From positions 1,922,001 through 1,986,000 of the forward strand of contig NZ_CP070499.1 in the NCBI RefSeq assembly GCF_016925615.1: a stretch of DNA of 64,000 nucleotides, in the 5' to 3' direction. Positions within the stretch are counted from its first letter, which is position 1; each line of letters begins with the position of its first letter. This document shows, one piece after another, positions 1-27,167 of the stretch. Below the pieces are notes generated by a model, which ran no database searches, had not been told where the DNA came from, and saw nothing but the letters and a program-made list of their open reading frames with translations. The translations under genes were made by a program, and so were the position numbers. The DNA is from Natronosporangium hydrolyticum. GTDB lineage: Bacteria; Actinomycetota; Actinomycetes; Mycobacteriales; Micromonosporaceae.

Positions 1-2
1 AC

Positions 3-1763
3 GAGGTGGGCGGCCTGGACAATATGCCGCAGGCGATCCAGGATCTCGTCAACACACCGATGGGCTCGATCGGTGAGCCACCCCACCGGCTGCCCTCCGG
101 GCTGCTCGATGAGCACGGCAATCTCCATCGGGACCTAGCCGAGTGGGATCTGACCATCGACGGGCTCGCGCAGTATGAGGGCTTCGTCAGCCTGTTGGAG
201 GCCTCGACCGTGGAGGGCGGCGAAAAGTTCACAAGCGAACTCGGTCAGTCGGCGCTGCGGGTCAAGCAGGAGCTGAACACGATCGCGGCCAACATCACGG
301 ATATTCTGGAGACTCCGGACATCTACCTGGTGAATGACGGGGACGCGATCGAACGCGCCTGGGCGGATGCAAGGCTGGCCACTCATGATGATGAGGTCAG
401 TCGGATGCTGTCGGTAGTGGCCCGGAATGAGGACGCATCGGCGAAGCTGCTGCTCGATAACGAGAACGAGACCCGCAGCATACTGCTGGGTATGAACTGG
501 TATGACGACCGGGGCGTGGTGGACATCATCGACGCCGGCACCGGGCGCGACCTCGAAGGCGACGGCGCCGGCATGGAGAAGCAAGCCAAGGCCGCCATGG
601 CGTTGATGAAGGAACTCGGAGGTGACCGAGACTTCTACCTCGACCGCACCACCGACAACATGCAGACCGCTATCGTCGACATGGGCATCCGCTGGATGGA
701 CACATTTGGCCGCAATCTCAGCAACAACATGAACACAGAGGTTGGCCAGTACCTTTACAATCTGGACGACGACCTACGGCTTGGGATCCAGATTAAACAC
801 GACGAGCGGCAGAACTTCCTTCAGTTCATCGCCGGGACCAGTGACGAGGAGTCGATCCGGTTTCGCGCCGCATCGGCACTGTACGCCGAGGACCTGCTCG
901 TGGATGCGCTGCAGCGAGGCAACGCCGTGGACGTGGATCGAGCGCTGGCGGTGGCCGGCCGGCTCGACGGCGCGATCAACGCGGCCGAGTACACCTACGT
1001 CATGGACCAGGTCTCCCACGACCAGGCCGAGAACGAGGCGGCGTGGCAGACCGAGACCCGGCGCAACGCCGGGTACGCATTGGCGGCGGAGATGGCCTGG
1101 GACGGCGCCAGCACCGCCGCCACCCTCAACTCCGGTGGCCTGGCATCGGTGGTGACCGCCGCCGCAAGCCCAGCGGTGTCGTCGTTGATCGAAACGGTCT
1201 TCGATCCTGACGACCGTGGGGACTACCGCGACTACGAGGCCCTGGTCATGAGGCAGGACCGCGACCTCGAGAAGGACCTCGAGCGCAATTATTTCCTCCT
1301 CGCTGCCTATGAGAAGGCCGGCATCGAACCGAATCTGGACCTTCAAACCGGCGGTACCCAGGCGCGCGTCGATCTCCTCTACGACGACGAGGGGAGACTG
1401 CGGCCGCTGAAGGATATCGGCGAGCCGACCGACGAGGGAGTCAAAGTGTCCGCCGAAGAACGGGACGCTTTCGCGGATGCCGAGAACGTTACCCGCCGTG
1501 AGTGGAGTGACCGCAACGGTCAGCAATTTGAGATGAACTCCTACACTGAGGAGCGAGACACGATCGACAGTGGTGCTTGGGAGGTAAACAGTCACGGGGA
1601 GAGCGTCCGGCCGGATCCGCCGCGCAATTCCGGTTGGGGTGACGGCGACACCGCCAGGGGGAGACTCTACGGTGACGACTACCACGACGAGCTGCGCCGG
1701 CAGTCTCCCTTCACCGATCCGGATGAGCTGTATCGGAATGGAATTGTAGAGGCGAACAGGTGA
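3..1763 (+). CDS. Large acidic protein of unknown function, 5' end outside window
   Basis: The frame is open to the left edge and the first possible start (GTG at 6) has no room for a visible ribosome site, so the gene is treated as partial. About 585 residues are visible. They are rich in Asp, Glu and Ala, look largely helical, and show no signal peptide or clear membrane span; one Ala/Ser-rich, weakly hydrophobic stretch lies near residues 366-392. The C-terminal 150 residues are very polar and probably disordered. I recognise no catalytic motif. The stop is immediately upstream of the first lipoprotein gene, so the two are probably co-transcribed. A large actinobacterial secretion-associated (WXG100/ESX-type) protein is one possibility, but that is a guess from size and composition only. 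Confidence 0.7.
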   Translation, partial: EVGGLDNMPQAIQDLVNTPMGSIGEPPHRLPSGLLDEHGNLHRDLAEWDLTIDGLAQYEGFVSLLEASTVEGGEKFTSELGQSALRVKQELNTIAANITDILETPDIYLVNDGDAIERAWADARLATHDDEVSRMLSVVARNEDASAKLLLDNENETRSILLGMNWYDDRGVVDIIDAGTGRDLEGDGAGMEKQAKAAMALMKELGGDRDFYLDRTTDNMQTAIVDMGIRWMDTFGRNLSNNMNTEVGQYLYNLDDDLRLGIQIKHDERQNFLQFIAGTSDEESIRFRAASALYAEDLLVDALQRGNAVDVDRALAVAGRLDGAINAAEYTYVMDQVSHDQAENEAAWQTETRRNAGYALAAEMAWDGASTAATLNSGGLASVVTAAASPAVSSLIETVFDPDDRGDYRDYEALVMRQDRDLEKDLERNYFLLAAYEKAGIEPNLDLQTGGTQARVDLLYDDEGRLRPLKDIGEPTDEGVKVSAEERDAFADAENVTRREWSDRNGQQFEMNSYTEERDTIDSGAWEVNSHGESVRPDPPRNSGWGDGDTARGRLYGDDYHDELRRQSPFTDPDELYRNGIVEANR

Positions 1764-1771
1764 GGTGGGGC

Positions 1772-2965
1772 ATGGGCTGGCAGCATCGGGCAGGGGTTTG
1801 CTTGGTTGCGGCGGCGATGGTGGTGGCGGTGTCGGGGTGTCAGCTCGGCGGGTCGGAGGGGGCGGCTGAGTTGTTTCATCTTCGTGGTGAGATCCGTCCG
1901 GACCATCAGTGGCCGGCTCGTGGGTCGTTGACCGGTGATGCGGAGTTGGTGGCGGAGGTTACTCAGGTGGTGGACCGGTGGCAGACTCCGGATGGTGTTG
2001 GTCGTTATCCCAGGCCGGTTTACAACTCGATCGCCTGGCTCGGTGAGGTCGACGGGCAGGTGTTGGCGGTGGTGGTGTTCGCGCCTGAGGACGACCACAC
2101 CAATCGGTGGGTGCTTGAGGTAACTGGGCAACCTGGCGACCTCGCGGTGACCGAATGGCGTGATTTCCGTACCCGAGTCACCAATATGATCGAGGACACT
2201 GAGGTGCTGCCGATTCGTTCGCCGGGCTTTGGTCCGCGTTATCTGACTTCTGCGAGGATTAACCGGTTGACCGTTGACGGTGTTGAGGTTGCGGTCACTG
2301 ACGGGTTGAGCGAGCCGGTGGAGGTAGGCCGATGCGGGATGGTCGAACTTATGGCCGAGGTCGATGACGATCATTTGATCTACGGTGATCTCGGTATCGG
2401 CGTTGAGGCTCCCGTCTACCCGCTGTTCTACGCCCGCGTCACTCCACCCAGTGGGATCTCCGACGTGGCGCGCCTGCAAGATGTCGACACTTGTGCCGGC
2501 GCGGCAGCAACCGAGTGGCTGGGGTCGTTGCGGGAACTGTTCGCGCCCGACATGCCTGCCGTGATGAGTTGGCGGGACCTGGTGGAGATTAACGCGGGAG
2601 AGTTTCACGGCATGGTTGAGGAGATTCCGGTAGATGGCTCTGGACAGGATCAGCGGGCGATTGTGATCATGTGGCGGCCCGAATCGGGCCCGCCGGTGCT
2701 GTCCACCGCCGAGCGGGACTGGCTGCGTCCTGAGTCTCTGACGTTCGCCTTTCACACCGATGAAGGCCCGCTCGCGGTTCTGATGTATCCTAGCGGGGTA
2801 AACGTCACGCCGGAGCGGGAGTTTCGGGACGTCGAAGTGTCGGCGGAGGCCACGCTGCTGGCTGCCGAGCCGCACGTCATCGTGGTGGCGCTACCCGATC
2901 ACGAGATCGAGATCTCCTACACCCGTGACGGTGAACGAGAGCAGGTCGCTGTTGAAGCTCCGTGA
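1772..2965 (+). CDS. Tandem-array lipoprotein, copy 1
   Basis: A 397-residue predicted lipoprotein. Residues 1-23 form a signal peptide ending in the lipobox VSGC, with Cys23 as the lipidation site. The mature part begins with the family signature ELFHLRGE and WPARGSLTGD, contains a conserved DTCA segment, and ends with the block RAIVIMWRPESG, TPEREFRDVEV and HVIVVALPDHEIEISY. The ATG at 1772 is preferred over the upstream GTG at 1760: GAGG lies 6 nt before it and it aligns with the M-S-W start of the paralogs. The start is 8 nt after the stop of the upstream gene. The function is unknown; it should be anchored on the outer face of the membrane. It is closest to the copies at 7952 and 9278. 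Confidence 0.85.
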   Translation: MGWQHRAGVCLVAAAMVVAVSGCQLGGSEGAAELFHLRGEIRPDHQWPARGSLTGDAELVAEVTQVVDRWQTPDGVGRYPRPVYNSIAWLGEVDGQVLAVVVFAPEDDHTNRWVLEVTGQPGDLAVTEWRDFRTRVTNMIEDTEVLPIRSPGFGPRYLTSARINRLTVDGVEVAVTDGLSEPVEVGRCGMVELMAEVDDDHLIYGDLGIGVEAPVYPLFYARVTPPSGISDVARLQDVDTCAGAAATEWLGSLRELFAPDMPAVMSWRDLVEINAGEFHGMVEEIPVDGSGQDQRAIVIMWRPESGPPVLSTAERDWLRPESLTFAFHTDEGPLAVLMYPSGVNVTPEREFRDVEVSAEATLLAAEPHVIVVALPDHEIEISYTRDGEREQVAVEAP

Positions 2966-3021
2966 TGCAGTCCATCGCGATTGTCAGATTGCGATTGTGC
3001 TTGTTCGGGTCGTCTAGCCTA
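2966..3021 (+). repeat. 72-bp conserved spacer, copy 1 (split by IS630 element)
   Basis: This is the left 56 bp of a spacer that recurs intact at 6682-6753, 9206-9277, 10472-10543 and 11747-11818. The last 16 bp lie beyond the insertion sequence, at 4217-4232. It contains three GATTG motifs in a row and the block CTTGTTCGGGTCGTC. It separates lipoprotein genes and ends at the next ATG. It probably carries a promoter or regulator site, but no good -35/-10 pair is evident, and there is no clear Shine-Dalgarno before the ATG. Confidence 0.8.
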
Positions 3022-4214
3022 GTGTCTCGTGATCCTGTTAGCGTTATCTTGATGTGTCGTTGACTCGGTTGTGATGTGGGTGGTCGATGCTGGTGGGGTG
3101 GGGTTGACGCAGGAACAGACAGCTGAGCTTCGGGCTGTGATCAACAGCCGGGACGTGTCCGGAGCGGTCGCGACCCGGGCTCGGATCGTGTTGTGGATGG
3201 CCGAGGGAAGAAGGCGCAAGGACGTGGCGGCGTTGGCTGGCGTGTCGTTGCCTACTGTGGATCGCTGGGTGGGTCGGTACGAGGCCGAAGGGCTGGCGGG
3301 TCTGGAGGATCAGAAGCGGGGCGGACCCAGGGATCAGGTTCCGGCCCGGGTGCGTGCCCGGATCCTGGCGCTGAGCCGTACCAGTCCGCCGCCCGAAACC
3401 GGGCTGTCGCACTGGTCGAGTCGTCAGATGGCCGGCTACATCAGGCAGACTGAGGGTGTGCCGGTGTCCTGGCACTACGTGGCCCGGCTGTGGCGTGAGC
3501 ATGACCTCAAGCCGCACCTGCAGGGCACGTTCAAGCTGTCGAAGGATCCACGGTTCACCGAGAAGGTCGCCGACGTGGTCGGGCTGTATCTGGACCCGCC
3601 GGCCGGAGCGGTCGTCTTGTCGATCGATGAGAAGACGCAGGTCCAGGCGCTCGACCGTACCCAGCCGATGCTGCCGATCGATTTCGGGCTGACCGAGAAA
3701 CGCACTCACGACTACGTCCGGCACGGCACCACGAACCTGTTCGCCGCACTCGATGTCGGCACGGGGCAGGTGACCGCCGGCTGCTACCCGCGCCGCACCG
3801 GCGAGGCGTTTCTGGCGTTCCTGCGCAAGGCGGTCAAGCCGCACGCTGGCAAGCAGATCCACGTCGTGCTGGACAACCTGTCCACCCACACCACCCCCGA
3901 GGTGAAGGCATGGCTGGAGCGCAACCCGAACGTCACCCTGCACTTCACCCCGGTCGGGTCGAGTTGGATCAACCAGATCGAGGCCTGGTTCGGGCTCATC
4001 ACCAGGCAGGCCATCCGGCGGGGCACGTTCGCCTCGGTCAACGCTCTGATCGCCCGTATCCGTGCCTACGTCGAGCACTGGAACACCGACGCCAAGCCGT
4101 TCGTATGGACCGCCACCGCCGGCCAGATCCTCGCCAAGGTCCGCTGGGCCGAGTCCAACGTCAAGCAACTCGTAGCGAACAACTCAAAGTAACGCAAACA
4201 GAGTTACGGAACAC
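3022..4214 (+). mobile_element. IS630-family insertion sequence, 1193 bp
   Basis: The ends are 25-bp imperfect inverted repeats at 3022-3046 and 4190-4214, matching at 19 of 25 positions. They are flanked by TA at 3020-3021 and 4215-4216, the TA duplication expected for IS630. The empty site is visible in the same window: the homologous spacer at 6682-6753 has one TA at the matching position. Removing the element plus one TA restores a spacer of exactly 72 bp. The single transposase gene fills the element and its stop codon lies inside the right inverted repeat. The element looks complete and recently inserted. Confidence 0.93.
3071..4192 (+). CDS. IS630-family transposase
   Basis: A 373-residue DDE transposase. 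The N-terminus has a helix-turn-helix region (RRKDVAALAGVSLPTVDRW). The catalytic triad is visible as Asp186 (LSIDEKT), Asp268 (VVLDNLSTH) and Glu304 (NQIEAWFG), with 35 residues between the second Asp and the Glu, as in the IS630/Tc1 group. Start choice is between GTG 3071 and ATG 3074, two adjacent codons. It is intact, with no frameshift or internal stop, so the element may be active. It catalyses cut-and-paste movement into TA dinucleotides. Confidence 0.95.
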   Translation: MMWVVDAGGVGLTQEQTAELRAVINSRDVSGAVATRARIVLWMAEGRRRKDVAALAGVSLPTVDRWVGRYEAEGLAGLEDQKRGGPRDQVPARVRARILALSRTSPPPETGLSHWSSRQMAGYIRQTEGVPVSWHYVARLWREHDLKPHLQGTFKLSKDPRFTEKVADVVGLYLDPPAGAVVLSIDEKTQVQALDRTQPMLPIDFGLTEKRTHDYVRHGTTNLFAALDVGTGQVTAGCYPRRTGEAFLAFLRKAVKPHAGKQIHVVLDNLSTHTTPEVKAWLERNPNVTLHFTPVGSSWINQIEAWFGLITRQAIRRGTFASVNALIARIRAYVEHWNTDAKPFVWTATAGQILAKVRWAESNVKQLVANNSK

Positions 4215-4232
4215 TAGCGATGGTTGTGTGAC

Positions 4233-5441
4233 ATGAGCTGGCTACGGCAGAGCTTGGTCTGTGCGGTGGCGGCGGCCCTGGTGCTGGCGGTGTCGGGGTG
4301 TCAGCTTAGTCAGCCGGCAGAGTCGGCAGGCGAGGCAGAGCTGTTCCACCTGCGTGGGGAGGTCCGCCCGGATGAGCAGTGGCCGGCCCGCGGGTCACTG
4401 ACCGGGGACCAGGACCTGGTTGATGAGGTCACCGAGGTAGCTGACGCCTGGCAGACCCCCGATGGGGTTCCTCGTCACCCCAGCCCGGTCTTCAGTTCGA
4501 TTGTGTGGCTGGGTGAGGTGGCTGGCCAGGTGTTGGGTGTGGTTGCGTTTGCCCCTGCGGATGAGTACAGCGATACCTGGATCGTGGAGATCACCGGAGA
4601 GCCGGGGGACCTGGAAGTCACCGAGGCCAGGAACTTTCGGGCTGGGGTGACCAACTTCATCGAAGACACCGAGGTGTTGCCGATCCGGTCTGCTGGAGTG
4701 GGCCCTCGCTATCTCGTGTCAGCATTCGTTGACGAGGTTTACGTCGATGGTGTGACTGTGGCTGTCGATGATGGGCTTACGGAGCCGGTGCGGGTGCCCG
4801 AGTGCGAACTTGTAGAGGTAGTGCTCGACATCCGCCAGGGCAGACTGATCGCTTATGGTGACTGGGGAGCCGCGGTCCCCTACCCGGTTTACCCACTGTT
4901 CTTCGCCCGAGGAGCAGAGCCTCCAGAAGTCTCCGACGTTGCGAAGATACAGGGCATGGACACCTGCATCGAGGCGAAGCCAGGTGGTTGGCTAGCCGCT
5001 GCCCGGGAGGTGCTGGCCCCGGAGACACCAGCGGTGATCGGCTGGGGAGAACTTGCGAGGATCGACAGCGGTCCACTGGCGGGCGCGGTGGACGACATCG
5101 GGATCCTCGGGTCGGGCAATCGCGACCAGGCCGTCGTGGTGATGTGGCGGCCGGAGTCCGGCGGGGCGCCCGCGTTCTCCAGCGCACATCTGGAGCCGTC
5201 GCCGATTAGCAACCCGATGGTGTTCAGCCTGAGCACACCGGAAGGGCCACTCGGGGTCGTGACCTACGTGCGGGGAAGCATAACGCCTGAGCGCGAGTTC
5301 TCGGATATTGGCGTTCCAAACGAAGCCGGCCTGCTGGTTGCGGAACCAGGAGTGATTGTCGTGGCGCTGCCCGACCACGAGATCGAGATCTCGTATACCC
5401 GTAACGGCGAACGAGAGCAGGTCAGGGTTGAAGCTCCGTGA
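4233..5441 (+). CDS. Tandem-array lipoprotein, copy 2 (type A)
   Basis: A 402-residue predicted lipoprotein with signal peptide and lipobox VSGC (Cys23). The type A subfamily is recognised by EVADAWQTPDG and VFSSIVWLGEVAGQVLG. The first roughly 200 codons are almost identical to copy 4 at 6754; the middle diverges, and the last 40 residues are again identical. This mosaic points to gene conversion. The ATG at 4233 is chosen over GTG 4224 because all paralogs start M-S-W. The IS630 element lies only 16 bp upstream, so the original promoter may be cut off from this gene. The end overlaps the next lipoprotein gene. The function is unknown. Confidence 0.85.
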   Translation: MSWLRQSLVCAVAAALVLAVSGCQLSQPAESAGEAELFHLRGEVRPDEQWPARGSLTGDQDLVDEVTEVADAWQTPDGVPRHPSPVFSSIVWLGEVAGQVLGVVAFAPADEYSDTWIVEITGEPGDLEVTEARNFRAGVTNFIEDTEVLPIRSAGVGPRYLVSAFVDEVYVDGVTVAVDDGLTEPVRVPECELVEVVLDIRQGRLIAYGDWGAAVPYPVYPLFFARGAEPPEVSDVAKIQGMDTCIEAKPGGWLAAAREVLAPETPAVIGWGELARIDSGPLAGAVDDIGILGSGNRDQAVVVMWRPESGGAPAFSSAHLEPSPISNPMVFSLSTPEGPLGVVTYVRGSITPEREFSDIGVPNEAGLLVAEPGVIVVALPDHEIEISYTRNGEREQVRVEAP

Positions 5442-6681
5442 TGTGGTCCCGGGCAATCCTCAGGTTGCGCTGGTTCGTGCACTCACGAACGGGACGCCAT
5501 GGGTCTGCGCGGTATTGGCGGTGATGGTGGTGGCGGTGTCTGGGTGTCAGCCCAGTCAGCCGGCGGAGTCGGCAGGTGAGGCAGAGCTGTTCCACCTGCG
5601 CGGGGAGATCCGTCCGGACCACCAGTGGCCGGCTCGCGGATCGCTGACCGACGACGGCGACCTGGTCGCTGAGGTCACCCAGGTGGCGGATGAGTGGCAG
5701 ACTCCGGATGGGGTCGGTCGTTACCCTAGCCCGGTTTACAACTCGATTGCTTGGCTCGGTGAGGTCGATGGTCAGGTGTTGGGGGTGGTGGTGTTCGCGC
5801 CAGCGGATGACCACACCAACCGGTGGGTGCTTGAGATCACTGGGCAACCTGGAGATCTCAGGGTGACCGAGTGGCGCGACTTTCGCACCCGGGTCACCAA
5901 TATGATCGAGGACTCCGAGGTGCTACCGATCCGATCGCCAGGCATTGGGCCGCGCTATCTGACCTCCGCGAGGATCAACCGACTCACCGCCGACGGCGTA
6001 GAACTTGTGGTCACCGACGGGTTGAGTGAGCCGGTGGAGGTAGACCGGTGCGGAACGGTCGAACTCGTCGCAGAAGTCGACAACCGGGATCTCGTGTACG
6101 GCGACCTCGGCACCGACGTCGAAGCCCCCCGCTACCCGCTGTTTTATGCGCAAGGCGTCCCTGCCAGCGGCGTCTCCGATGTGGCACGGCTACAAGGCAT
6201 CGACACCTGCGCCGGCGCGGCCGAGGGCGAGTGGCTGGGGTCGGCACGGGAGCTGTTCGCGCCCGACATTCCGGCCGCGATGAGCTGGGGAGAGTTGGCG
6301 GAGATCGGCGCAGGGGAATTCCGCGGCACGGTTGAGGAGTTTGCTGTCTATGGTTCCGGGCGGGATCAACGGGCGATCGTGATCATGTGGCGGCCCGAAT
6401 CCGGTCCGCCGGTCCTGTCCACCGCCGAGCAGGACTGGCTACGCCCCGAATCGCTCATGTTCGCCTTTCACGCTGACGAAGGCCCACTCGCGGTCCTAAT
6501 GTATCCCAGCGGGGTAAGCATCACCCCGGAGCGGGAGTTTCGGGACGTCGAAGTGCCGGCGGAGGCCACGCTGCTGGCCGCCGAGCCCGACGTCATCGTG
6601 GTGGCACTACCCGACCACGAGGTTGAGGTCTCGTACACCCGTGACGGTGAACGAGAGCAGGTCGGTGTTGAAGCTCCGTGA
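5428..6681 (+). CDS. Tandem-array lipoprotein, copy 3 (type B)
   Basis: About 417 residues, ending in the same C-terminal block as the other copies. The start is uncertain. The frame extends into the upstream gene, but a lipoprotein signal peptide (VCAVLAVMVVAVSGC) fixes the region. A TTG at 5428 gives the N-terminus MKLRD, with two positive charges, and is also present in the sister gene at 7952; GTG 5443 is the alternative. With TTG the gene overlaps copy 2 by 14 nt, which suggests translational coupling of a type A/type B pair. The mature protein carries ELFHLRGEIRPDHQWPARG and the usual C-terminal motifs. The function is unknown. Confidence 0.8.
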   Translation: MKLRDVVPGNPQVALVRALTNGTPWVCAVLAVMVVAVSGCQPSQPAESAGEAELFHLRGEIRPDHQWPARGSLTDDGDLVAEVTQVADEWQTPDGVGRYPSPVYNSIAWLGEVDGQVLGVVVFAPADDHTNRWVLEITGQPGDLRVTEWRDFRTRVTNMIEDSEVLPIRSPGIGPRYLTSARINRLTADGVELVVTDGLSEPVEVDRCGTVELVAEVDNRDLVYGDLGTDVEAPRYPLFYAQGVPASGVSDVARLQGIDTCAGAAEGEWLGSARELFAPDIPAAMSWGELAEIGAGEFRGTVEEFAVYGSGRDQRAIVIMWRPESGPPVLSTAEQDWLRPESLMFAFHADEGPLAVLMYPSGVSITPEREFRDVEVPAEATLLAAEPDVIVVALPDHEVEVSYTRDGEREQVGVEAP

Positions 6682-6753
6682 TGCAGTCCAGGGAGATTGT
6701 CAGATTGCGATTGTGCTTGTTCGGGTCGTCTCGCCTAGCGATGGTTTTGTGAC
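6682..6753 (+). repeat. 72-bp conserved spacer, copy 2 (uninterrupted)
   Basis: This intact copy has TCGCCTAGCGATGG near its end and serves as the empty-site reference for the IS630 insertion at 3020. Copies 3-5 have TCGTCGAGTGATGG at this place and lack the TA target. Confidence 0.85.
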
Positions 6754-7965
6754 ATGAGCTGGCTGCGGCAGACCGTCGTCTGCGCGGTGGCGGCGGCCCT
6801 GGTTCTGACGGTGTCGGGGTGTCAGCTTAGTCAGCCGGCAGAGTCGGCAGGCGAGGCAGAGCTGTTCCACCTGCGTGGGGAGGTCCGCCCGGATGAGCAG
6901 TGGCCGGCCCGCGGGTCACTGACCGGGGACCAGGACCTGGTTGATGAGGTCACCGAGGTGGCTGACGCCTGGCAGACTCCGGATGGGGTTCCTCGTCACC
7001 CCAGCCCGGTCTTCAGTTCGATTGTGTGGCTGGGTGAGGTGGCTGGCCAGGTGTTGGGTGTGGTTGCGTTTGCCCCTGCGGATGAGTACAGCGATACCTG
7101 GATCGTGGAGATCACCGGAGCGCCGGGGGACCTAGAAGTCACCGAGGCCCGGAACTTTCGGGCTGGGGTGACCAACTTCATCGAAGACACCGAGGTGTTG
7201 CCGATCCGGTCTGCTGGAGTGGGCCCTCGCTATCTCGTGTCAGCATTCGTTGACGAGGTTTACGTCGATGGTGTGACGGCGGCTGTCGATGATGGGCTTA
7301 CGGAGCCGGTGCGGGTGCCCGACTGCGAACTCGTCGAGGTAGTGCTCGACATCCGCGGCAGCAGACCCATCGCCTATGGAGACTGGGGAGCCGCCGTCCC
7401 ATCCCCGATCTATCCGCTGTTCTTCGCCCGAGGAGCAGAAGGCCCGGAAATCACCGATGTGGCAAGGGTGCAAGGATTCGATACCTGCGCCGAGGCTGAG
7501 TCGGGCGGTTGGCTAACCGTGGCACGCGAGGTACTGGCTCCAGAGACTCCCGCGGTGGTGGGTTGGCGGGAGGTGGCAAGAATCGATAGCGGGCTGCTCG
7601 GGGGAACGTTGGCCGCCCTTAGGCTTATCGCCTCTGGTAACCGGGAGCGTGCGATCGTGGTGATGTGGCGGCCAGAGTCGGGTGACGCGCCCGCGTTCTC
7701 CACGGCGCAGCTCACTCCCTCCTCCGTCGACAATCCAATGATTTTCACCATTGACGCGCCGGAGGGGAGGCTCGGTGTAGTGACGTATCAAACCGGGGTG
7801 AGTGTCACACCCGAGCGGGAGTTCACCGAGGTGGACATCCCGACCGAAGCCGACCTGCTGGTTGCGGAACCAGGAGTGATTGTCGTGGCGCTGCCCGACC
7901 ACGAGATCGAGATCTCGTATACCCGTAACGGCGAACGAGAGCAGGTCAGGGTTGAAGCTCCGTAA
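6754..7965 (+). CDS. Tandem-array lipoprotein, copy 4 (type A)
   Basis: A 403-residue predicted lipoprotein, signal peptide ending VSGC (Cys23). It is nearly identical to copy 2 up to about residue 195, then differs through the centre (for example TLAALRLIASGNRERAIVVMWRPESGD), and becomes identical again in the last 40 residues. The ATG at 6754 directly follows the 72-bp spacer. It overlaps copy 5 by 14 nt, repeating the type A/type B arrangement seen upstream, so the pair was probably duplicated as a unit. The function is unknown. Confidence 0.87.
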   Translation: MSWLRQTVVCAVAAALVLTVSGCQLSQPAESAGEAELFHLRGEVRPDEQWPARGSLTGDQDLVDEVTEVADAWQTPDGVPRHPSPVFSSIVWLGEVAGQVLGVVAFAPADEYSDTWIVEITGAPGDLEVTEARNFRAGVTNFIEDTEVLPIRSAGVGPRYLVSAFVDEVYVDGVTAAVDDGLTEPVRVPDCELVEVVLDIRGSRPIAYGDWGAAVPSPIYPLFFARGAEGPEITDVARVQGFDTCAEAESGGWLTVAREVLAPETPAVVGWREVARIDSGLLGGTLAALRLIASGNRERAIVVMWRPESGDAPAFSTAQLTPSSVDNPMIFTIDAPEGRLGVVTYQTGVSVTPEREFTEVDIPTEADLLVAEPGVIVVALPDHEIEISYTRNGEREQVRVEAP

Positions 7966-9205
7966 CGCGGTCCCGGGCAATCCTCAGGTTGCGCTGGTTC
8001 GCGCACTCACGAACGGGACGCCATGGGTCTGCGCGGTACTGGCGGTGATGGTGGTGGCGGTGTCGGGGTGTCAGCCCAGCCAGCCGGCGGAGTCGGCAGG
8101 CGAGGCAGAGCTGTTCCACCTGCGCGGGGAGATCCGTCCGGACCATCAGTGGCCGGCTCGCGGGTCGCTGACCGGTGACGCGGAGTTGGTGGCGGAGGTC
8201 ACCCAGGTGGTGGACCAGTGGCAGACTCCCGAGGGGGTCGGTCGTTACCCTAGCCCGGTTTACAGTTCGATTGCTTGGCTCGGTGAGGTCGATGGTCAGG
8301 TGTTGGGGGTGGTGGTGTTCGCGCCTGCGGATGACCGTACCGATCGGTGGGTGCTTGAGGTAACTGGGCAACCTGGTGATCTCGTGGTGACCGAATGGCG
8401 TGATTTTGGCACCCGGGTTACGAATATGATTGAGGATGCTGAAGTGCTGCCGATTCGTTCGCCGGGCTTTGGTCCGCGTTATCTGACTTCTGCGAGGATT
8501 AACCGGTTGACCGTTGACGGTGTTGAGGTTGCGGTTGCCGAGGGGTTGAGTGAGCCGGTGGAGGTTGGCCGGTGTGGGATGGTCGAACTTGTGGCTGAGG
8601 TCGACGGCGGCCATCTGGTCTATGGTGATCTCGGCGCCGGTGTTGAGGCTCCTTTTTACCCGCTCTTCTTCGCCCAAGTCATCCCACCTAGCGGTGTTTC
8701 CGACGTGGCGCGTCTGCAAGATGTCGACACTTGTGCCGGTGCGGCCGAGACCGGATGGCTGGGGTCGGTACGGGAGCTGTTCGCGCCCGACATGCTAGCC
8801 GCGATGAGTTGGGGAGAGTTGGCGGAGATCGGCGCAGGGGAATTCCGCGGTACGGTTGAGGATATTGCTCTCTATGGCTCTGGGCAGGATCAGCGGGCGA
8901 TCGTGATCATGTGGCGGCCTGAATCGGGTCCGCCGGTGCTGTCCACTGCCGAGCAGGACTGGCTGCGTCCTGAGTCTTTGACATTCGGCTTTCACACCGA
9001 TGAAGGCCCGATCGGGGTTCTGATGTATCCCAGCGGTGTAAATGTCACGCTGGAGCGGGAGTTTCGTGACGTCGAAGTGTCGGCGGAGGCCATGCTGCTG
9101 GCCGCCGAGCCGCACGTCATCGTGGTGGCGCTACCCGATCACGAGATCGAGGTCTCGTACACCCGTGACGGTGAGCGGGAGCAGGTCGGTGTTGAAGCTC
9201 CGTGA
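7952..9205 (+). CDS. Tandem-array lipoprotein, copy 5 (type B)
   Basis: About 417 residues. The start is inferred as TTG at 7952 (MKLRNAVPG), equivalent to the TTG at 5428. The alternative GTG used by copy 3 is lost here (GCG), which favours the TTG for both. Lipoprotein signal VCAVLAVMVVAVSGC. The DNA of the middle section is close to copy 1, with long identical stretches such as the segment coding for SARINRLTVDGVEVAV, again suggesting exchange between copies. Translation is probably coupled to copy 4. The function is unknown. Confidence 0.8.
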   Translation: MKLRNAVPGNPQVALVRALTNGTPWVCAVLAVMVVAVSGCQPSQPAESAGEAELFHLRGEIRPDHQWPARGSLTGDAELVAEVTQVVDQWQTPEGVGRYPSPVYSSIAWLGEVDGQVLGVVVFAPADDRTDRWVLEVTGQPGDLVVTEWRDFGTRVTNMIEDAEVLPIRSPGFGPRYLTSARINRLTVDGVEVAVAEGLSEPVEVGRCGMVELVAEVDGGHLVYGDLGAGVEAPFYPLFFAQVIPPSGVSDVARLQDVDTCAGAAETGWLGSVRELFAPDMLAAMSWGELAEIGAGEFRGTVEDIALYGSGQDQRAIVIMWRPESGPPVLSTAEQDWLRPESLTFGFHTDEGPIGVLMYPSGVNVTLEREFRDVEVSAEAMLLAAEPHVIVVALPDHEIEVSYTRDGEREQVGVEAP

Positions 9206-9277
9206 TGCAGTCCAGGGCGATTGTCAGATTGCGATTGTGCTTGTTCGGGTCGTCTCGTCGAGTGATGGTTGTGTGAC
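9206..9277 (+). repeat. 72-bp conserved spacer, copy 3
   Basis: Nearly identical to the spacers at 10472-10543 and 11747-11818. It lies between the stop of copy 5 and the ATG of copy 6. Confidence 0.85.
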
Positions 9278-10471
9278 ATGAGCTGGGTGCGGCAGAGCTC
9301 GGTCTGTGCGGTGGCGGCGGCCTTGGTGGTGGCGGTCTCGGGGTGCCAGCTCAGCCAGTCGGCACGGGATGTTGAGCTGTTCCACCTGCGTGGGGAGCTC
9401 TACCCCGACAGCACGTGGCCCGCTCGCGGGTCGCTGACCGGCGACTCGGAGTTGGTCGCCGAGGTCATCAAGATGGTGGACCAGTGGCAGACGCCCGACG
9501 GGGTCGGTCGTTATCCCAGTAGGGTCTATAGCTCGATCGCCTGGCTGGGCGAGGTCGACGGGCAGGTGCTCGCAGTCGTCGTGTTCGCACCCGAGGATGA
9601 CCACACCAACGAATGGCTGCTCGAGGTAACCGGCCAACCTGGCAACCTCACCGTCACCGAGGCCCGCGACATCCGTACTGTGTTCGGCAACTCTATCGAG
9701 AACACGGAGCTGGTGCCCATCCGCTCGGACGCGATCGGACCCCGCTACCTGACATCCACCAGGATCGACCGGCTCACCGCCGACGGCGTCGAGCTGACGG
9801 TCACCGACGGACTGAGCGGGCCGGTGGAGGTAGAGCAATGCACAATGGTCGAGCTGATGGCAGAGGTCCGCAACGAGGACCTTATCTACGGCGACCTCGG
9901 CACCGGCGTCGAAGCACCCCTCTACCCACTGTTCTACGCCCGCGTCCTACCACGCAGCGGGATCTCCAACGTGGCACGTTTGCAAGACGTCGACACCTGC
10001 GCCAGCGTGTCCGAGACTGAATGGCTGGGTTCGGCGCGGCAACTTTTCGCGCCCGACATCCCCGCGGTGACGTATTGGCGGGAGCTCGCGGAGATCAACA
10101 CGGGAGGATTTGAGGGCACGCTGGAGGAGATCCTTATCGATGGCTCCGGGCGGGATCAACGGGCGATCGTGATCATGTGGCGGCCCGAATCGGGCCCGCC
10201 GGTGCTGTCCACTGCCGAGCAGGACTGGCTGCGTCCTGAGTCTCTGACGTTCGCCTTTCACGCTGACGAAGGCCCACTCGCGGTCCTAATGTATCCCAGC
10301 GGGGTAAGCATCACCCCGGAGCGGGAGTTTCGGGACGTCGAAGTGCCGGCGGAGGCCATGCTGCTGGCCGCCGAGCCGCACGTCATCGTGGTGGCGCTAC
10401 CCGATCACGAGGTTGAGATCTCTTACACCCGTGACGGTGAACGGGAGCAGGTCGGTGTTGAAGCTCCGTGA
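9278..10471 (+). CDS. Tandem-array lipoprotein, copy 6
   Basis: A 397-residue predicted lipoprotein (lipobox VSGC, Cys23) starting M-S-W-V-R-Q-S. The mature sequence is shorter at its N-terminus than types A and B (QSARDVELFHLRGEL). It keeps WPARGSLTGD, DTCA, RAIVIMWRPESGPPVLSTAEQDW and the common tail. The segment WRELAEINTGGFEGTLEEI is the closest relative of the truncated final copy. The stand-alone spacer upstream suggests its own transcription start. The function is unknown. Confidence 0.87.
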   Translation: MSWVRQSSVCAVAAALVVAVSGCQLSQSARDVELFHLRGELYPDSTWPARGSLTGDSELVAEVIKMVDQWQTPDGVGRYPSRVYSSIAWLGEVDGQVLAVVVFAPEDDHTNEWLLEVTGQPGNLTVTEARDIRTVFGNSIENTELVPIRSDAIGPRYLTSTRIDRLTADGVELTVTDGLSGPVEVEQCTMVELMAEVRNEDLIYGDLGTGVEAPLYPLFYARVLPRSGISNVARLQDVDTCASVSETEWLGSARQLFAPDIPAVTYWRELAEINTGGFEGTLEEILIDGSGRDQRAIVIMWRPESGPPVLSTAEQDWLRPESLTFAFHADEGPLAVLMYPSGVSITPEREFRDVEVPAEAMLLAAEPHVIVVALPDHEVEISYTRDGEREQVGVEAP

Positions 10472-10543
10472 TGCAGTCCAGGGCGATTGTCAGATTGCGA
10501 TTGTGCTTGTTCGGGTCGTCTCGTCGAGTGATGGTTGTGTGAC
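10472..10543 (+). repeat. 72-bp conserved spacer, copy 4
   Basis: Almost the same sequence as spacer copy 3. It ends at the ATG of lipoprotein copy 7. Confidence 0.85.
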
Positions 10544-11746
10544 ATGAGCTGGCTGCGGCCGACCGTGGTCTGTGCGGTCGCGACGGTGTTGGTGCTGATG
10601 GCGGGGTGTCAGGGCGAGAATCCTGATGGCGGGGGGGATGATGTTCCGCTACTCAATCTGCGTGGGGAGCTCAACCCCGACGAGCAGTGGCCAGCCCGGG
10701 GGTCACTGACCGAGGACGCGGAACTGATCGCAGAGGTGAGCCAGGTTGTGGACCAATGGCAGACCACCGACGGGGTAGGTCGCCACACTCGCTCGGCACT
10801 CACCTCGATCGCCTGGCTAGGAGAGATCGACGGGCAGGTCCTCGCGGTCGTGGCGTTTGCTCCCGAAGGCACGTCCAACGACCGGTGGATCGTCGAGGTG
10901 ACTGGCCAGCCGGGTGACATGGCGGTTACCGAGGCACGCGATATTCGCACCCGGATCGGGAACTCTATCGAGGACACGGAGCTGGTACCGATCCGCTCGG
11001 AGGGGATCGGCCCTCGATACCTGGTGTCAGCCCGGGTTGATTGGCTGACCGCCGACGGCGCGGAGGTTCAGCTAGTTGACGGTTTGAGCGAAGAGGTCGA
11101 GGTGGGCCGGTGTGAGCTGGTCGAGTTGGTCGCGGCGATCGGAGACGAGCGACTGGTCTATGGCGACCTGGGGACCAACGTCGAGCCTCCGCTGTATCCG
11201 TTGTTCTACGCACGGGGTCTTGGGCCAGAAGAAATAACCGACGTCGCTCGGCTACAAGGAGCAGGAGTAGATACCTGCGCCGCTGCGAGGAGCGAATGGT
11301 TGGGATCGCTGCACGAGCTGTTCGAACCCGAGATTCCAGCGGTGTTGAGCTGGGTCGAGCTAATCGAGATCAACTCAGAGGATTTTCGTGGCTCGTTGGA
11401 GGAGATTCCCGTCAACGGCTCCGGGTATGACCAACGGGCGATCGTGATCATGTGGCGCCCTGAGGCTGGTCCGCCGGTACTGTCTACTGCGCAGCTGAAC
11501 GAGCCGCGTCACCGTTCCCTGACGTTCGTGTTCGAGACCACCGAGGGCCCGCTCGCGGTTCTGATGTATCCTAGCGGGGTAAACGTCACGCCGGAGCGGG
11601 AGTTTCGGGACGTCGAAGTGTCGGCGGAGGCCGCGCTGCTGGCCGCCGAGCCGCACGTCATCGTGGTGGCTCTACCCGATCACGAGGTTGAGATCTCTTA
11701 CACCCGTGACGGTGAACGGGAGCAGGTCGGTGTTGAAGCTCCGTAA
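10544..11746 (+). CDS. Tandem-array lipoprotein, copy 7 (divergent)
   Basis: A 400-residue predicted lipoprotein with a different lipobox, LMAGC. The mature N-terminus has an Asp/Gly-rich linker (NPDGGGDDVPLLNLRGEL), making it the most divergent intact copy over its first 300 residues. From about YPSGVNVTPEREF to the stop, the DNA is nearly identical to its neighbours, which fits 3' gene conversion. It contains the usual RAIVIMWRPEAGPPVLSTAQ block. The function is unknown. Confidence 0.87.
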   Translation: MSWLRPTVVCAVATVLVLMAGCQGENPDGGGDDVPLLNLRGELNPDEQWPARGSLTEDAELIAEVSQVVDQWQTTDGVGRHTRSALTSIAWLGEIDGQVLAVVAFAPEGTSNDRWIVEVTGQPGDMAVTEARDIRTRIGNSIEDTELVPIRSEGIGPRYLVSARVDWLTADGAEVQLVDGLSEEVEVGRCELVELVAAIGDERLVYGDLGTNVEPPLYPLFYARGLGPEEITDVARLQGAGVDTCAAARSEWLGSLHELFEPEIPAVLSWVELIEINSEDFRGSLEEIPVNGSGYDQRAIVIMWRPEAGPPVLSTAQLNEPRHRSLTFVFETTEGPLAVLMYPSGVNVTPEREFRDVEVSAEAALLAAEPHVIVVALPDHEVEISYTRDGEREQVGVEAP

Positions 11747-11818
11747 TGCACCCGAGGGCGATTGTCAGATTGCGATTGTGCTTGTTCGGGTCGTCTCGTC
11801 GAGTGATGGTTGTGTGAC
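11747..11818 (+). repeat. 72-bp conserved spacer, copy 5
   Basis: The last copy of the spacer, ahead of the degenerate eighth lipoprotein gene. It starts TGCACCCGAGGG rather than TGCAGTCCAGGG. Confidence 0.83.
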
Positions 11819-12294
11819 ATGAGCTGGGTGCGGCAGAGCATGGTCTGCGCGGTGGCGGCGGCCTTGGTGGTGGCGGTCTCGGGGTGCCAGCTCAGCCAGT
11901 CGGCACGGGGGTCGAGATCAACACTGGAGGATTTGACGGTGCGCTGGAGGATATCCTCATCGATGGCTCCGGGCGGGAACAGCGGGCGATCGTGGTGATG
12001 TGGCGTCCCGAATCCGGTCCGCCGATTTTCTCGAGGGTCGAGCAGGAGCTACTTCGCTACGAATCGGTCACGTTCAGCTTCCACACTGACGAAGGCCCAC
12101 TCGCGGTCCTGATGTATCACCACGGCATCGCGATCACCCCGGAGCGGGAGTTTCGGGACGTCGAAGTGCCGGCGGAGGCCACGCTGCTCGCCGCCGAGCC
12201 GCACGTCATCGTGGTAGCACTACCCGAACACGAGATCGAGATCTCCTACCTCCGTGACGGTGAACGAGAGCGGGTCACCGTCGCAGCTCCGTAA
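11819..12294 (+). pseudogene. Tandem-array lipoprotein, copy 8, deleted and frameshifted
   Basis: The first roughly 90 bp encode a signal peptide and start nearly identical to copy 6 (MSWVRQSMVCAVAAALVVAVSGCQLSQSARG, shown here as two joined family blocks). At about 11908 the sequence jumps to a region matching copy 6 codons for EINTGGFEGTLEEI, removing roughly 0.7 kb. The two parts are in different frames: the signal-peptide frame ends at 11998, and the C-terminal frame is open from about 11884 to 12294. The C-terminal part still carries RAIVVMWRPESGPP, TPEREFRDVEV and HVIVVALPEHEIEISY. No functional lipoprotein is expected unless a frameshift is tolerated. Confidence 0.85.
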
Positions 12295-12315: not shown

Positions 12316-12963
12316 TCAGGCCAGGGCAGCCTGGGCCGCCTGTTCGGCTGCGACGAGCTGCTGCTGCCAGTACTCCGACAGGGTGTCGCCGAAGAACTCA
12401 CGGTAGTAGCCGAGGTAGGTCAGCCGTACCTGTGCTGGGGTCTCCGGGGCGGCGAAGAACGCCAGGTCGCCGGGGACCATGTTGCGCATCCCCAGGATCG
12501 GCATCGGACTGGCGAACGGCCGGAAGGTCGGGCTGTGCAGGCCAGGCGTCTCATGTGCGGGCCAGAAGTCGCCGGCGAGCATGCCGCCGGCGACGAACTC
12601 GGGCCGCAGCTGGGCGTGGACCCGCTCCACCAGGGCTTTCAGGGCCGACTCGGCCAGGCCGTAGGGGATGATGAAGTACACCAGGTAGCTGCGGTCCTCG
12701 GGGTGCTCCTGGCAGTGCTGCACGAACCGGGTCCGCATCTCGCGGGCGTAGCCGGCGAGCGCGTCGTCGCCGAGCGTGGCGTCGAAGGGGAACAGTTGCA
12801 CCACCTGGTGCTGCAACGCCCGCCCCATATAGGGGCATACTGGCCCGGACCGCCCAAGATCGGGGTGGGGGTTGATGGGGAAGTCGCGTAGCCAGCGCCA
12901 GGCCAGGTCGAGACGCTCCTTCGCGGCCGGGTCGAGCACCGGCTCCTCCACAGGAACGGACAT
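12316..12963 (-). CDS. DUF6875-like protein of unknown function
   Basis: A 215-residue soluble protein. The segment FPINPHPDLGRSGPVCPYMGRAL near the N-terminus resembles the conserved start of a family (which I recall as DUF6875) often found beside actinobacterial biosynthetic clusters; I am not certain of that number. ATG at 12963 is preferred to GTG 12975 because GAGG lies 6 nt before it. The gene converges with the lipoprotein remnant (21 bp between stops) and diverges from the MFS gene, so it may be the left border of the polyketide cluster. No catalytic motif is recognised; one Cys in the VCPY segment is notable. Confidence 0.8.
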   Translation of the reverse strand: MSVPVEEPVLDPAAKERLDLAWRWLRDFPINPHPDLGRSGPVCPYMGRALQHQVVQLFPFDATLGDDALAGYAREMRTRFVQHCQEHPEDRSYLVYFIIPYGLAESALKALVERVHAQLRPEFVAGGMLAGDFWPAHETPGLHSPTFRPFASPMPILGMRNMVPGDLAFFAAPETPAQVRLTYLGYYREFFGDTLSEYWQQQLVAAEQAAQAALA

Positions 12964-14601: not shown

Positions 14602-15654
14602 ATGCCACTATCGCTCTCCGAGCAGGAGTACCGCCGGTTCCTGGAGACCGATGATGCTCCCGCACCCCACCTGGACTTCCTGCACACCGCCTCCTATCGG
14701 GCGGCGGGCGCGGGGGTACGCCTAGGGGTGTTCGATGCTCTGGCCGAGGGCCCACTGCCGGGTGAGGTGCTGGCGGAGCGGCTGCAGGTCGACCCCCGCG
14801 GGCTGGGGCTGCTGCTGACGGCGTTGCGGAGCTTCGGCTACCTCACGGTCACCGGTGATGGATATGTCAACACCGCGAAGGCGCAGAAGTGGTTGCTGGA
14901 CACGCCCGGCAGCTATGCGACGGTCTTCTCGTTCTGGCAGACGGTGCTCTTCGAGCTGTGGTCGGAGCTGGAGGATTCGGTGCGCACCGGGAAGCCGGCG
15001 GTCGATTTCTACCAGTGGCTGGAGCAACGGCCCGCGACGATGCGGCGCTTCCAGACGATGCTGACCCGGCTGGCCGGGTTCCTGTGTCCGGAGGTGCTGG
15101 CGGCGGTGACGCTGCCCGAAGGGGCGACGAAGCTGCTGGACATCGGGGGTGGACACGCCACCTACGCCGTGGGCTTCTGCCAGCGCTATCCGGAGCTGTC
15201 GGCGACCGTGCTCGACCTGCCGGGGGCGTTGGCGGTCGGTTCTGAGGCGGTCGCTGCCGCCGGGCTGACCGGCCGGGTCTCGATGCGCGAGGGGGATCTG
15301 CGGACGGACCCGTTCGACGCGGCAGAGTTCGACGTGGCGTTGCTCTTCAACATTGTGCACGGGATGCCGCCGGCAGAAGTGCGGCAACTGCTCGCCGCGG
15401 TAGCCGCGGCGCTGCGGCCGGGGGGCCGGGTGTTGGTGTTGGAGCCACTGTCCGACCTCGCGGCCGGTGGTGGGGTGGTGGGTGAGGCGTTCGTGCGGAC
15501 CTTCAGCCTCAATCTCTTCCACGGGCAGGGCGGGCAGGTCTATGGCTACGCCGAGTTGGCCGAGTGGTTGACCGAGGCCGGCTTCACCGACCTCGATCGC
15601 CACACGTTCCAGAAGTCACCCACGGACCACCTGATCACCGCGCTCCGCGGTTGA
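14602..15654 (+). CDS. SAM-dependent O-methyltransferase (Methyltransf_2 type)
   Basis: A 350-residue class I methyltransferase. An N-terminal winged-helix dimerisation region (residues about 25-100) precedes the SAM-binding core. The glycine-rich motif I is [15 protein letters not shown], followed by an acidic residue region ([10 protein letters not shown]), and a later [13 protein letters not shown] motif. This architecture is that of polyketide O-methyltransferases such as TcmO/DmpM relatives. AAGGAGG lies 9 nt before the ATG. The 3' end overlaps the MbtH-like gene on the opposite strand by 39 bp. It probably methylates a phenol of the polyketide. Confidence 0.9.
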
Positions 15655-15861
15655 CTGCTGCTCATCCATCCAGCGGCGCAACGACAACGGCCGGAGGTCG
15701 GTCCAGACCTGTTCGATGTGGGCCAGGCACTCGGCCTTGCCGCCGACGACTCCTTCGCGCCGCCAACCGTCCGGAAGTGGCTGGTCGTCGAGCCAGATGG
15801 AGTATTGCTCCTCGTCGTTGACGACCACCGCGTAGGTGTTGGTGTCCTCTTCGTCCTGCAT
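15616..15861 (-). CDS. MbtH-like protein
   Basis: An 81-residue protein with the MbtH signature: [17 protein letters not shown], then PDGWR and [15 protein letters not shown]. MbtH proteins bind and activate adenylation domains of non-ribosomal peptide synthetases. No adenylation domain is encoded in this window, so the partner must lie elsewhere, or the protein helps another enzyme. The residue usually Pro in the NDEGQHSLWP-type motif is changed (IWLDD). AAGGG is 7 nt before the ATG. It is convergent with and overlaps the O-methyltransferase end, and diverges from the ATP-grasp gene, with which it may share a bidirectional promoter. Confidence 0.87.
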
Positions 15862-15980
15862 CGCACACCCTTACATCGCCGTAGGTTCGGGGTTCTCGGC
15901 GTAATAGTATGGCGCCTGCGGAGCTGAGACCACCAGCTGTCCAGGCGACGATATCTCCACACTGCACCGAAGGAGGCACG
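15862..15980. promoter_or_regulatory. Divergent promoter region, MbtH-like gene / ATP-grasp gene
   Basis: 119 bp between divergent starts. An AT-rich patch GTAATAGTATGG (about 15900-15911) offers TAGTAT as a -10 on the + strand and TACTAT on the - strand; -35 boxes are poor on both. Confidence 0.35.
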
Positions 15981-17300: not shown

Positions 17301-17456
17301 TCGGCCGCGAGTTGCCGCCTAGCATGTTCGGCCGGTAGCGGGATCAAGTCACCGGAAAATCAGCAAAGGTTTCAGACGCCACATACGCTAAATCCGACCC
17401 AATGACCGGTTTGCCGGTTTTGTCAGTGGGGTCGGCGAAGCGTGTGAGGAGGACAG
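17301..17456 (+). promoter_or_regulatory. Leader of the polyketide operon
   Basis: 156 bp without a gene, AT-richer than its surroundings. It holds a CCGGTTT direct repeat (about 17406-17420) and ends with GAGGAGG before the GTG at 17457. All genes from 17457 to 31187 point the same way with tiny gaps, so this probably holds the operon promoter, but no clear -35/-10 pair is evident. Confidence 0.4.
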
Positions 17457-18071
17457 GTGTCTGAGAGCAGATTAGCGGTCATCTACTTCAGTCGAAGTGG
17501 CACGATCGCGATGCTGGCGCGGCACATAGCCGAAGGCGCGGCGGCTCACGGCGCCGAAGTGCGGCTTCGGACTGTGGCCAGCCCGGACCAGGGTGGTGGT
17601 GGCGGTGGCCTGGCTCCGGAACCGGCGAGCATGGCCGACCTGGAGTGGGCGGACGCCATCGCGTTCGGTTCCCCGACCCGGTTCGGCAACCTCGCTGCGG
17701 AGCTGAAGGAGTTCCTGGACCGGACCGGGCCGCTGGCCCTGCGGGGCAAGCTCGCCGACAAGGCGGTCTCCGGCTTCACCAGCGCCGCGTCTCCGCATGG
17801 TGGGCAGGAAGCGACCCTGCTGGCGCTCTACCACACGATGTGCCACTGGGGCGCCGTGATCGTCCCGACCGGCTACACCGATCCGTCGCTGCGGGAGATC
17901 GGCGGCAACCCGTACGGCTTGTCCGTGACCGCCCGGCACGACGGCTCGCTGTCGCCCGCGGAGGTCGTCGCCGCCCGCTTCTTCGGGGTCCGGTTGGCCG
18001 GTATCGGCGCCCGGCTGGCCGAACCCGTCCCGGAGCCGGCCCGCGAACCGGTTCCGGCCGGCGGGGCATAG
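17457..18071 (+). CDS. WrbA-type NAD(P)H:quinone oxidoreductase / flavodoxin-fold protein
   Basis: A 204-residue flavodoxin-fold protein. The FMN phosphate loop is YFSRSGTIAMLA near residues 10-21, followed by the SPTRFGNLAAELKEFLD and FTSAASPHGGQE segments typical of WrbA. It would bind FMN and reduce quinones by two electrons using NAD(P)H. Pentangular polyketide clusters often contain such a reductase to keep aromatic intermediates reduced, or to supply reduced flavin to monooxygenases. The GTG start has GAGGAGG 4-5 nt upstream. A rare TTA leucine codon is at codon 6. The C-terminus is Pro/Glu-rich. Confidence 0.88.
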   Translation: MSESRLAVIYFSRSGTIAMLARHIAEGAAAHGAEVRLRTVASPDQGGGGGGLAPEPASMADLEWADAIAFGSPTRFGNLAAELKEFLDRTGPLALRGKLADKAVSGFTSAASPHGGQEATLLALYHTMCHWGAVIVPTGYTDPSLREIGGNPYGLSVTARHDGSLSPAEVVAARFFGVRLAGIGARLAEPVPEPAREPVPAGGA

Positions 18072-18083
18072 GGGGGGCCAGCC

Positions 18084-23978: not shown

Positions 23979-24022
23979 CCGGCCGAGCTGGACATGTAGA
24001 TGCGAACGGAAGTGAGGTTGGA

Positions 24023-25969
<1,947 letters not shown>

Positions 25970-25979
25970 GGAGAATCTC

Positions 25980-27140: not shown

Positions 27141-27167
27141 CCACCGGCTCACCGAAAGGAGACAGTG

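Follow-up and report, generated by a model that had tools for sequence, protein, structure and literature searches.

In firmicutes, the type VII immunity genes esaG and tipC form tandem arrays that recombine, and TipC carries a probable lipoprotein signal (PMC9484751). A second example comes from the tandem lipoproteins encoded by the lpl (DUF576) genes of Staphylococcus aureus, with TilA shown to act as extracellular immunity to the type VII-secreted toxin TslA (PMC10730906). Here we describe an array of lipoprotein genes in the actinomycete Natronosporangium hydrolyticum that is built in a similar way. The array lies in a stretch of 64,000 nt, hereafter the window, that covers positions 1922001-1986000 of the single-contig, 5.70 Mb genome (NZ_CP070499.1; G000 in our genome labels). 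As an earlier note on this DNA had stated, it comprises seven intact lipoprotein open reading frames (ORFs) of about 400 codons (c1 to c7) and one remnant (c8), in tandem and all in the same orientation. On the + strand it spans 1760-12294. It directly follows a gene for a large, helical, EspA-like protein with a TPR_23 domain. We propose, with a probability of roughly 45%, that the array lipoproteins act at the cell surface as immunity proteins against a secreted protein linked to ESX.

Type VII immunity arrays are characterised by tandem paralogues that differ from one another, share blocks at their ends and recombine, and all of these features are found here. Indeed, esaG and tipC at their type VII toxin loci likewise show homology blocks and inter-copy recombination, and in tipC, as in our array, a variable centre lies between a 5′ and a 3′ block (PMC9484751). 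The present array differs from esaG and tipC in that the copies scanned match no Pfam or NCBIfam family above cut-off, that the neighbouring gene encodes a TPR_23 protein of the EspA kind in which no toxin domain is recognised, and that the genome's ESX machinery belongs to the EccC type. The lpl genes share with the array their multi-copy, tandem arrangement of lipoproteins; however, TilA is encoded 5′ of a lipase with reversed domains (PMC10730906), whereas our array lies 3′ of a helical protein in which no enzyme domain was found. ExsI and ExiR of Corynebacterium glutamicum are alike in principle, in that a type VII-secreted protein is recognised by one of the cell's own membrane proteins, but ExiR is a predicted protein with three transmembrane (TM) segments rather than a lipoprotein array, and its substrate is an iron binder of the WXG100 family (PMC12607788). 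The mycobacterial EspA-EspC pair resembles the present locus in placing a small WXG100/EspC-like protein next to a large TPR_23 protein of the EspA kind, and at one distant locus (L157) both models are passed, although the small protein of the present locus falls below the WXG100 and EspC cut-offs. To our knowledge, no lipoprotein array is part of the mycobacterial EspA-EspC operon. The earlier note recognised no described system; this holds for the sequence family of the array, whose scanned copies match no Pfam or NCBIfam model above cut-off, but not for the principle, since recombining tandem type VII immunity genes have been published in firmicutes (PMC9484751).

The array is strongly mosaic through recombination among its paralogues. 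In a codon alignment of the seven intact copies, some pairs alternate between near-identity and 55-80% identity. The earlier note described c2 (4233..5441, +, 402 aa) and c4 (6754..7965, +, 403 aa) as matching, diverging and matching again, and this is what the alignment gives, with nucleotide identities by tenths of 91, 100, 98, 98, 96, 80, 71, 71, 59 and 95%. For the same pair, the proportion of synonymous differences (pS) is 0.31 over the first 25 alignment codons, 0-0.11 over codons 25-220, 0.51-0.85 over codons 220-382 and 0.06 in the tail. Between c6 (9278..10471, +, 397 aa) and c7 (10544..11746, +, 400 aa), the latter diverged except for a converted tail, pS is 0.03 over the last 43 codons but 0.39-0.83 over codons 60-382. 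Divergence is therefore not uniform along the copies, pS switching from about 0 to 0.5-0.85 within single pairs. The all-against-all alignment and recombination tests that the earlier note had suggested point the same way: with our own implementation of the pairwise homoplasy index (PHI; 406 informative sites), none of 5000 permutations was as low as the observed value, so that absence of recombination is rejected, and in a GENECONV-like permutation test the longest shared run was matched in none of 2000 permutations for 8 of the 21 pairs (c2/c4, c1/c5, c1/c7, c3/c6, c5/c6, c2/c3, c2/c5 and c4/c5). The other 13 pairs ranged from 1 to 925 of 2000 permutations.

Noncoding sequence is affected as well, all 72 positions being identical between the c5-c6 spacer (9206..9277, +) and the c6-c7 spacer (10472..10543, +). 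Because synonymous sites switch and noncoding spacers are identical, purifying selection at the protein level cannot by itself explain the mosaic. The common tail, which had been thought to extend even across otherwise divergent copies, is 92-97% identical among c1, c3, c5, c6 and c7 and 95% identical between c2 and c4, but only 74-78% identical between these two sets. Recombination is thus clear; that it is ongoing, as the earlier note put it, is suggested by the near-zero synonymous divergence of the converted blocks in this one strain. Outside the first 60 codons, nearly every comparison gives a lower proportion of nonsynonymous differences (pN) than pS, and so the diverged centres are constrained, without visible positive selection.

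The protein encoded upstream of the array (973 aa; G000:C1:1920842-1923763, the gene starting before the window and its 3′ part occupying 1..1763, +) passes the PF23275 model (TPR_23, EspA-like) with 31 bits against a cut-off of 27. The GTG start codon of c1 (1760..2965, +, 401 aa) overlaps the stop codon of the TPR_23 gene (GTGA), from which we infer co-translation of the two. In front of the TPR_23 gene and divergent from it lies a gene for a 121-aa WXG100-like protein, which matches TIGR03930 (WXG100) with E 0.0027 and 17.9 bits, below the cut-off of 44.85; it has no Pfam match and falls short of both the WXG100 and the EspC cut-off. Two EccC genes above cut-off are present in the genome, far from the array, and the TPR_23 protein is presumably secreted and linked to type VII secretion. 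A structure predicted for its C-terminal 585 aa was unusable (pLDDT 33). The array copies carry a lipobox, VSGC in all but c7, where it is MAGC, and no Pfam or NCBIfam model scored above cut-off in the copies scanned (c1, c2, c7 and remnant c8). A PADLOC scan found no antiphage defence families.

We compared three genomes of the genus, including this one. A second genome (G023) has the same three-gene order, with one lipoprotein, which belongs to the array's family, and in the third the array lipoprotein has no homolog; the arrangement sought in related genomes thus recurs, but as a single lipoprotein rather than an array. This genome holds three further TPR_23-type loci (L066, L067 and L068), the gene at L068 being below the Pfam cut-off. 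L066 (G000:C1:939001-952000) combines a WXG-like gene and a gene for an 878-aa TPR_23 paralogue, which is followed by six lipoproteins of a family unrelated to that of the array; this second array is in part mosaic as well. These six genes, at 289-4324 (-) of the locus, encode proteins of about 210 aa each and form three A-B repeats. Between the copies B2 and B3, identity by eighths is 100, 95, 99 and 95%, then 68, 67, 67 and 52%, with a longest shared run of 48 (0 of 2000 permutations); among within-type pairs, three of six are at 5 or fewer of 2000 permutations and the other three are not significant. By BLAST, the array and L066 TPR_23 proteins are similar in the N-terminal part and TPR_23 domain in 2 of 2 pairs and in the region behind it in 0 of 2, though a multiple alignment suggests weak similarity there too. 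Outside this genome, the L066 lipoprotein family has one weak match (G138, E 1.5e-5), whose 14-kb surroundings contain no match to the TPR_23 queries. L067 (G000:C1:5099001-5116000) has a TPR_23 gene followed by a gene for a lipobox protein of 376 aa (8312-9442, -). The body of this protein resembles the C-terminal half of the protein encoded by the TPR_23 gene just upstream, which would fit fusion of a lipoprotein signal to a duplicate of the substrate's tail. A further WXG/EspC-like gene lies near an ABC transporter (L067:15389-15760, -), apparently without a TPR_23 neighbour in the stretch examined. L068 carries a shortened TPR_23 gene and no lipoprotein, and its gene neighbours correspond to those of the G023 locus.

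Relatives of the array lipoprotein occur in 53 of 200 genomes of the family, and the 52 other than this one have one match each (with at most 9 candidates scored per genome). Copy numbers across the order, for which no more than four candidates per genome were scored, were set aside. In all seven other genera examined (L043-L049), the single-copy homolog adjoins a dxs-like gene, as judged by reading the sequence, with one dxs confirmed; the dxs-type copy that we scanned (L044) has no Pfam match. In a tree, the seven array copies group in one clade (100/99). A branch divides the dxs-type proteins from the array, and on the array side of it also lie the G023 partner and another single homolog encoded in this genome. 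The dxs-type distribution and the tree placement suggest that one branch of a widespread single-copy lipoprotein became the partner of TPR_23 and was amplified in this lineage. A match outside the family of the window organism (G305, E 2.5e-8) lies beside what reads as a probable sigma factor gene. An AlphaFold2 model of the lipoprotein, built from 11 sequences, has a mean pLDDT of 59.8 with one fairly confident beta-rich stretch at about residues 50-220. Foldseek returned no match in the PDB at E <= 0.001 for this model, and the best VIA-align hit (Z 5.4) is a small designed beta-sheet protein, so we claim no fold.

A search for TPR_23 gave matches in 7 of 101 family genomes and in 28 of 394 from the class Actinomycetes (both counts include this genome). 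We analysed 33 TPR_23 genes: five from this genus, seven loci from other genera of the family, and 21 genes in 20 class-wide stretches, which were not sampled at random (family f31 contributed 19 of its 35 listed matches and f8 2 of its 21). A partner was scored as a lipobox ORF from -60 to +250 bp behind the TPR_23 gene, using a home-made lipobox rule and an ORF walk; the gene caller, also home-made, fails in low-GC stretches (L143-L145). By this rule, a lipobox ORF directly follows 15 of 33 TPR_23 genes and 19 of 171 other genes at the same loci (Fisher p 1.5e-5), and 11 of 28 TPR_23 genes when the genus of the window is set aside (p 5.8e-4). The figure of 15 is if anything low, since at five negative loci (L140, L144, L145, L146 and L153) the next gene belongs to a partner family, PQQ400, and has either a TM anchor or a lipobox not caught by the rule. 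Some of these loci have signs of ESX secretion: L152, L153 and L154, where lipoproteins are present, have ESX-like neighbours by reading of the sequence, the WXG100 match at L154 being sub-threshold (40.5 against 44.85), and at L157, from f8, the small gene passes EspC (PF10824) with 36.9 bits against 23.5, the TPR_23 model also being above cut-off. This recurrence in other families, together with the overlap of c1 with the TPR_23 gene and the second, unrelated array in the genome, goes beyond the earlier note.

The partners fall into four families: that of the array (fam1), that of L066 (fam2), L180 (5 loci with 11 lipoproteins) and PQQ400 (10 loci with 16 proteins, which are weakly like PQQ/BamB proteins, with PF13360 at 27.7 bits against 27.6 in one member and at 26.2 in another); the L157 lipoprotein belongs to none of them. 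We looked for homology between the families with hhalign, which gave probabilities of at most 35% over 18-65 columns, in several pairs mainly across the signal peptide, and we treat them as unrelated by sequence. Leaving L068 out of the following comparisons (partner walk, C-terminal comparison and tree), at least two partners of the same family stand in tandem at 8 of the 25 loci walked (7, 6, 4, 4, 3, 3, 2 and 2 copies). Shared runs recur in some of these, with 3 of 6 pairs of the L148 array at 3 or fewer of 2000 permutations and 1 of the 3 pairs tested at L140. At L148:4608-6650 (-), in a distant family, four tandem lipoproteins of about 170 aa lie behind the TPR_23 gene, the first resembling the third and the second the fourth, which amounts to a repeated two-gene unit. 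When partner labels are placed on a quickly built tree of 32 TPR_23 proteins, they require 6 changes, the minimum for seven labels, and none of 200 shuffles was as low. The partner families, unrelated by sequence, thus track the TPR_23 lineage. The label partly overlaps taxonomy, fam1 and fam2 being confined to this genus and, among these loci, PQQ400 and L180 to f31; within f31, L180 forms one clade (100), and two genomes (G634 and G722) each hold both the L180 and the PQQ400 type.

We favour surface immunity because membrane-anchored proteins that track the TPR_23 lineage, duplicate, reshuffle and differ in family between loci behave as do tipC, esaG and lpl-tilA. The overlap of c1 with the TPR_23 gene, the same gene order in G023, the excess of lipobox ORFs behind TPR_23 genes and the two EccC genes of this genome also speak for it. 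The module would have three parts: a small protein of the WXG100/EspC kind, a large TPR_23 protein, helical and EspA-like, presumably secreted and in this case toxic, and lipoproteins on the outer face of the membrane that would recognise and bind the TPR_23 protein and so protect the cell. The product of c1 would neutralise the cell's own TPR_23 protein. Duplication, and gene conversion via the shared ends and spacers, would have diversified the other copies, which may cover variants from related competitors. Several observations weigh against immunity. No toxin domain was recognised in the TPR_23 protein with Pfam, NCBIfam or PADLOC, and pN/pS across the copies gives no sign of positive selection. 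By our rule, 18 of 33 TPR_23 genes lack a lipobox gene directly behind, among them all seven loci of other genera in the family, and at the loci where NCBIfam models confirm EccC (L083, which also has EccD, L139 and L149) there is no lipobox partner. The array's own family also occurs as single copies beside dxs, away from TPR_23, and the copies at L150 show a significant run in 0 of 3 pairs. Lastly, the region behind TPR_23 gives BLAST matches in 46 of 50 pairs between PQQ400-type and L180-type loci; since these C-termini are still homologous, exchange of toxin tips is disfavoured at these loci. A modular polymorphic toxin with exchanged tips, which we also considered, is accordingly not supported between these two best-sampled types. 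Between the two arrays of this genome the BLAST result given above, with similarity up to and within TPR_23 but none behind it, points the other way and speaks for immunity.

The main rival is that the lipoproteins serve docking or assembly, tethering, capping or receiving an extracellular EspC/EspA-like complex at the membrane, with copies diversified through phage targeting or kin recognition rather than killing. We regard this as a serious though less probable explanation. It would account for the conservation of the TPR_23 C-terminus across the two best-sampled partner types, and it fits L157, where the small gene is EspC-like by the PF10824 score given above and the large gene is EspA-like. 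The weak likeness of PQQ400 to a PQQ/BamB-type propeller (PF13360), a common scaffold, is also consistent with docking, and in Corynebacterium a secreted WXG100 protein has a membrane receptor of its own (PMC12607788). However, several unrelated partner families for one conserved class of protein, and long, diverged arrays, exceed what an anchor needs, and the TPR_23 genes without a lipobox gene directly behind them count against docking as well.

The layout of the array bears on a further, unlikely explanation, namely near-neutral amplification in tandem, accompanied by concerted evolution, in which the additional copies serve dosage only or are decaying. The copies were said to lie in a row, and they do lie in tandem, but not uninterrupted: an IS630 transposase gene (3071..4192, +; NF033545, 260 bits against a cut-off of 100) sits inside the c1/c2 spacer, and CTAG flanks the element on both sides (a TA-containing target). 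Spacers of 72 bp precede c4 (6682..6753, +), c6, c7 and c8, and the spacer before c2 is the one interrupted by the insertion sequence. Both c3 (5428..6681, +, 417 aa) and c5 (7952..9205, +, 417 aa) are assigned TTG starts that overlap the ends of c2 and c4, respectively; these starts are our choice, an alternative GTG for c3 lying at 5443, and TTG (MKLR...) is the single start position that gives both a full signal peptide. Because they lie inside the ends of the preceding genes, c2-c3 and c4-c5 look like coupled pairs. Remnant c8 (11819..12294, +) has a c6-like signal-peptide head and a diverged tail: a 193-bp stretch, 96% identical to c6, takes in the last part of the gene before it as well as the spacer and the head. 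Internal loss of about 720 bp has joined this stretch, with a shift of frame, to a c6-like tail (84%). The remnant, the insertion, the lower G+C content at third codon positions (GC3 0.71-0.81) and the non-ATG starts of c1, c3 and c5 speak for near-neutral amplification. Nonetheless, all seven frames are intact and pN is well below pS where pS is 0.5-0.8, so the copies have been maintained, and tandem arrays have arisen in other lipoprotein families behind TPR_23 genes too. Least probable is surface antigen or phage-receptor variation of lipoproteins functionally unconnected with TPR_23, which the lipobox and mosaic structure would fit, but which is at odds with the recurrence of the TPR_23 neighbourhood in G023 and, with other lipoproteins, at distant loci, with the overlap of c1 and the TPR_23 gene, and with the presence at L066 of another, unrelated array behind a TPR_23 paralogue. 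Of the surface diversity that the earlier note compared to antigen or immunity arrays, the surface location (from the lipobox) and the likeness to immunity arrays are supported, and antigenic variation has no specific support.

Beyond the array, a DUF6875 gene (12316-12963, -) lies directly behind c8 on the opposite strand. Positions 14602-29245 of the window hold a probable polyketide-type biosynthetic cluster (O-methyltransferase, SchA/CurD-like, ketosynthase, carboxyl transferase and acyl-CoA dehydrogenase), followed by a penicillin-binding transpeptidase gene at 33445-35628.

Actinomycete ESX systems are known mainly for virulence and uptake. We tentatively suggest that the loci described here may belong to an as yet undescribed ESX (type VIIa secretion, T7SSa) system of antagonism or self-recognition that occurs in several Actinomycetes families. 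Its conserved helical effector, in which no enzymatic tip is recognised, would be matched by surface immunity lipoprotein families of fast turnover. In the open-access literature searched, we found no description of a WXG/TPR_23/lipoprotein-array module, which is not proof of its absence; the main text of one article (PMC11217815) contains none of the terms "lipoprotein", "TPR" or "EspA". If surface immunity is the correct explanation, ESX would gain a testable role in competition between actinomycetes, and the lipoproteins would offer clues to the membrane contacts of EspA-like proteins. Even if the lipoproteins instead serve docking, the lineage-specific partners would point to unrecognised components of ESX secretion.

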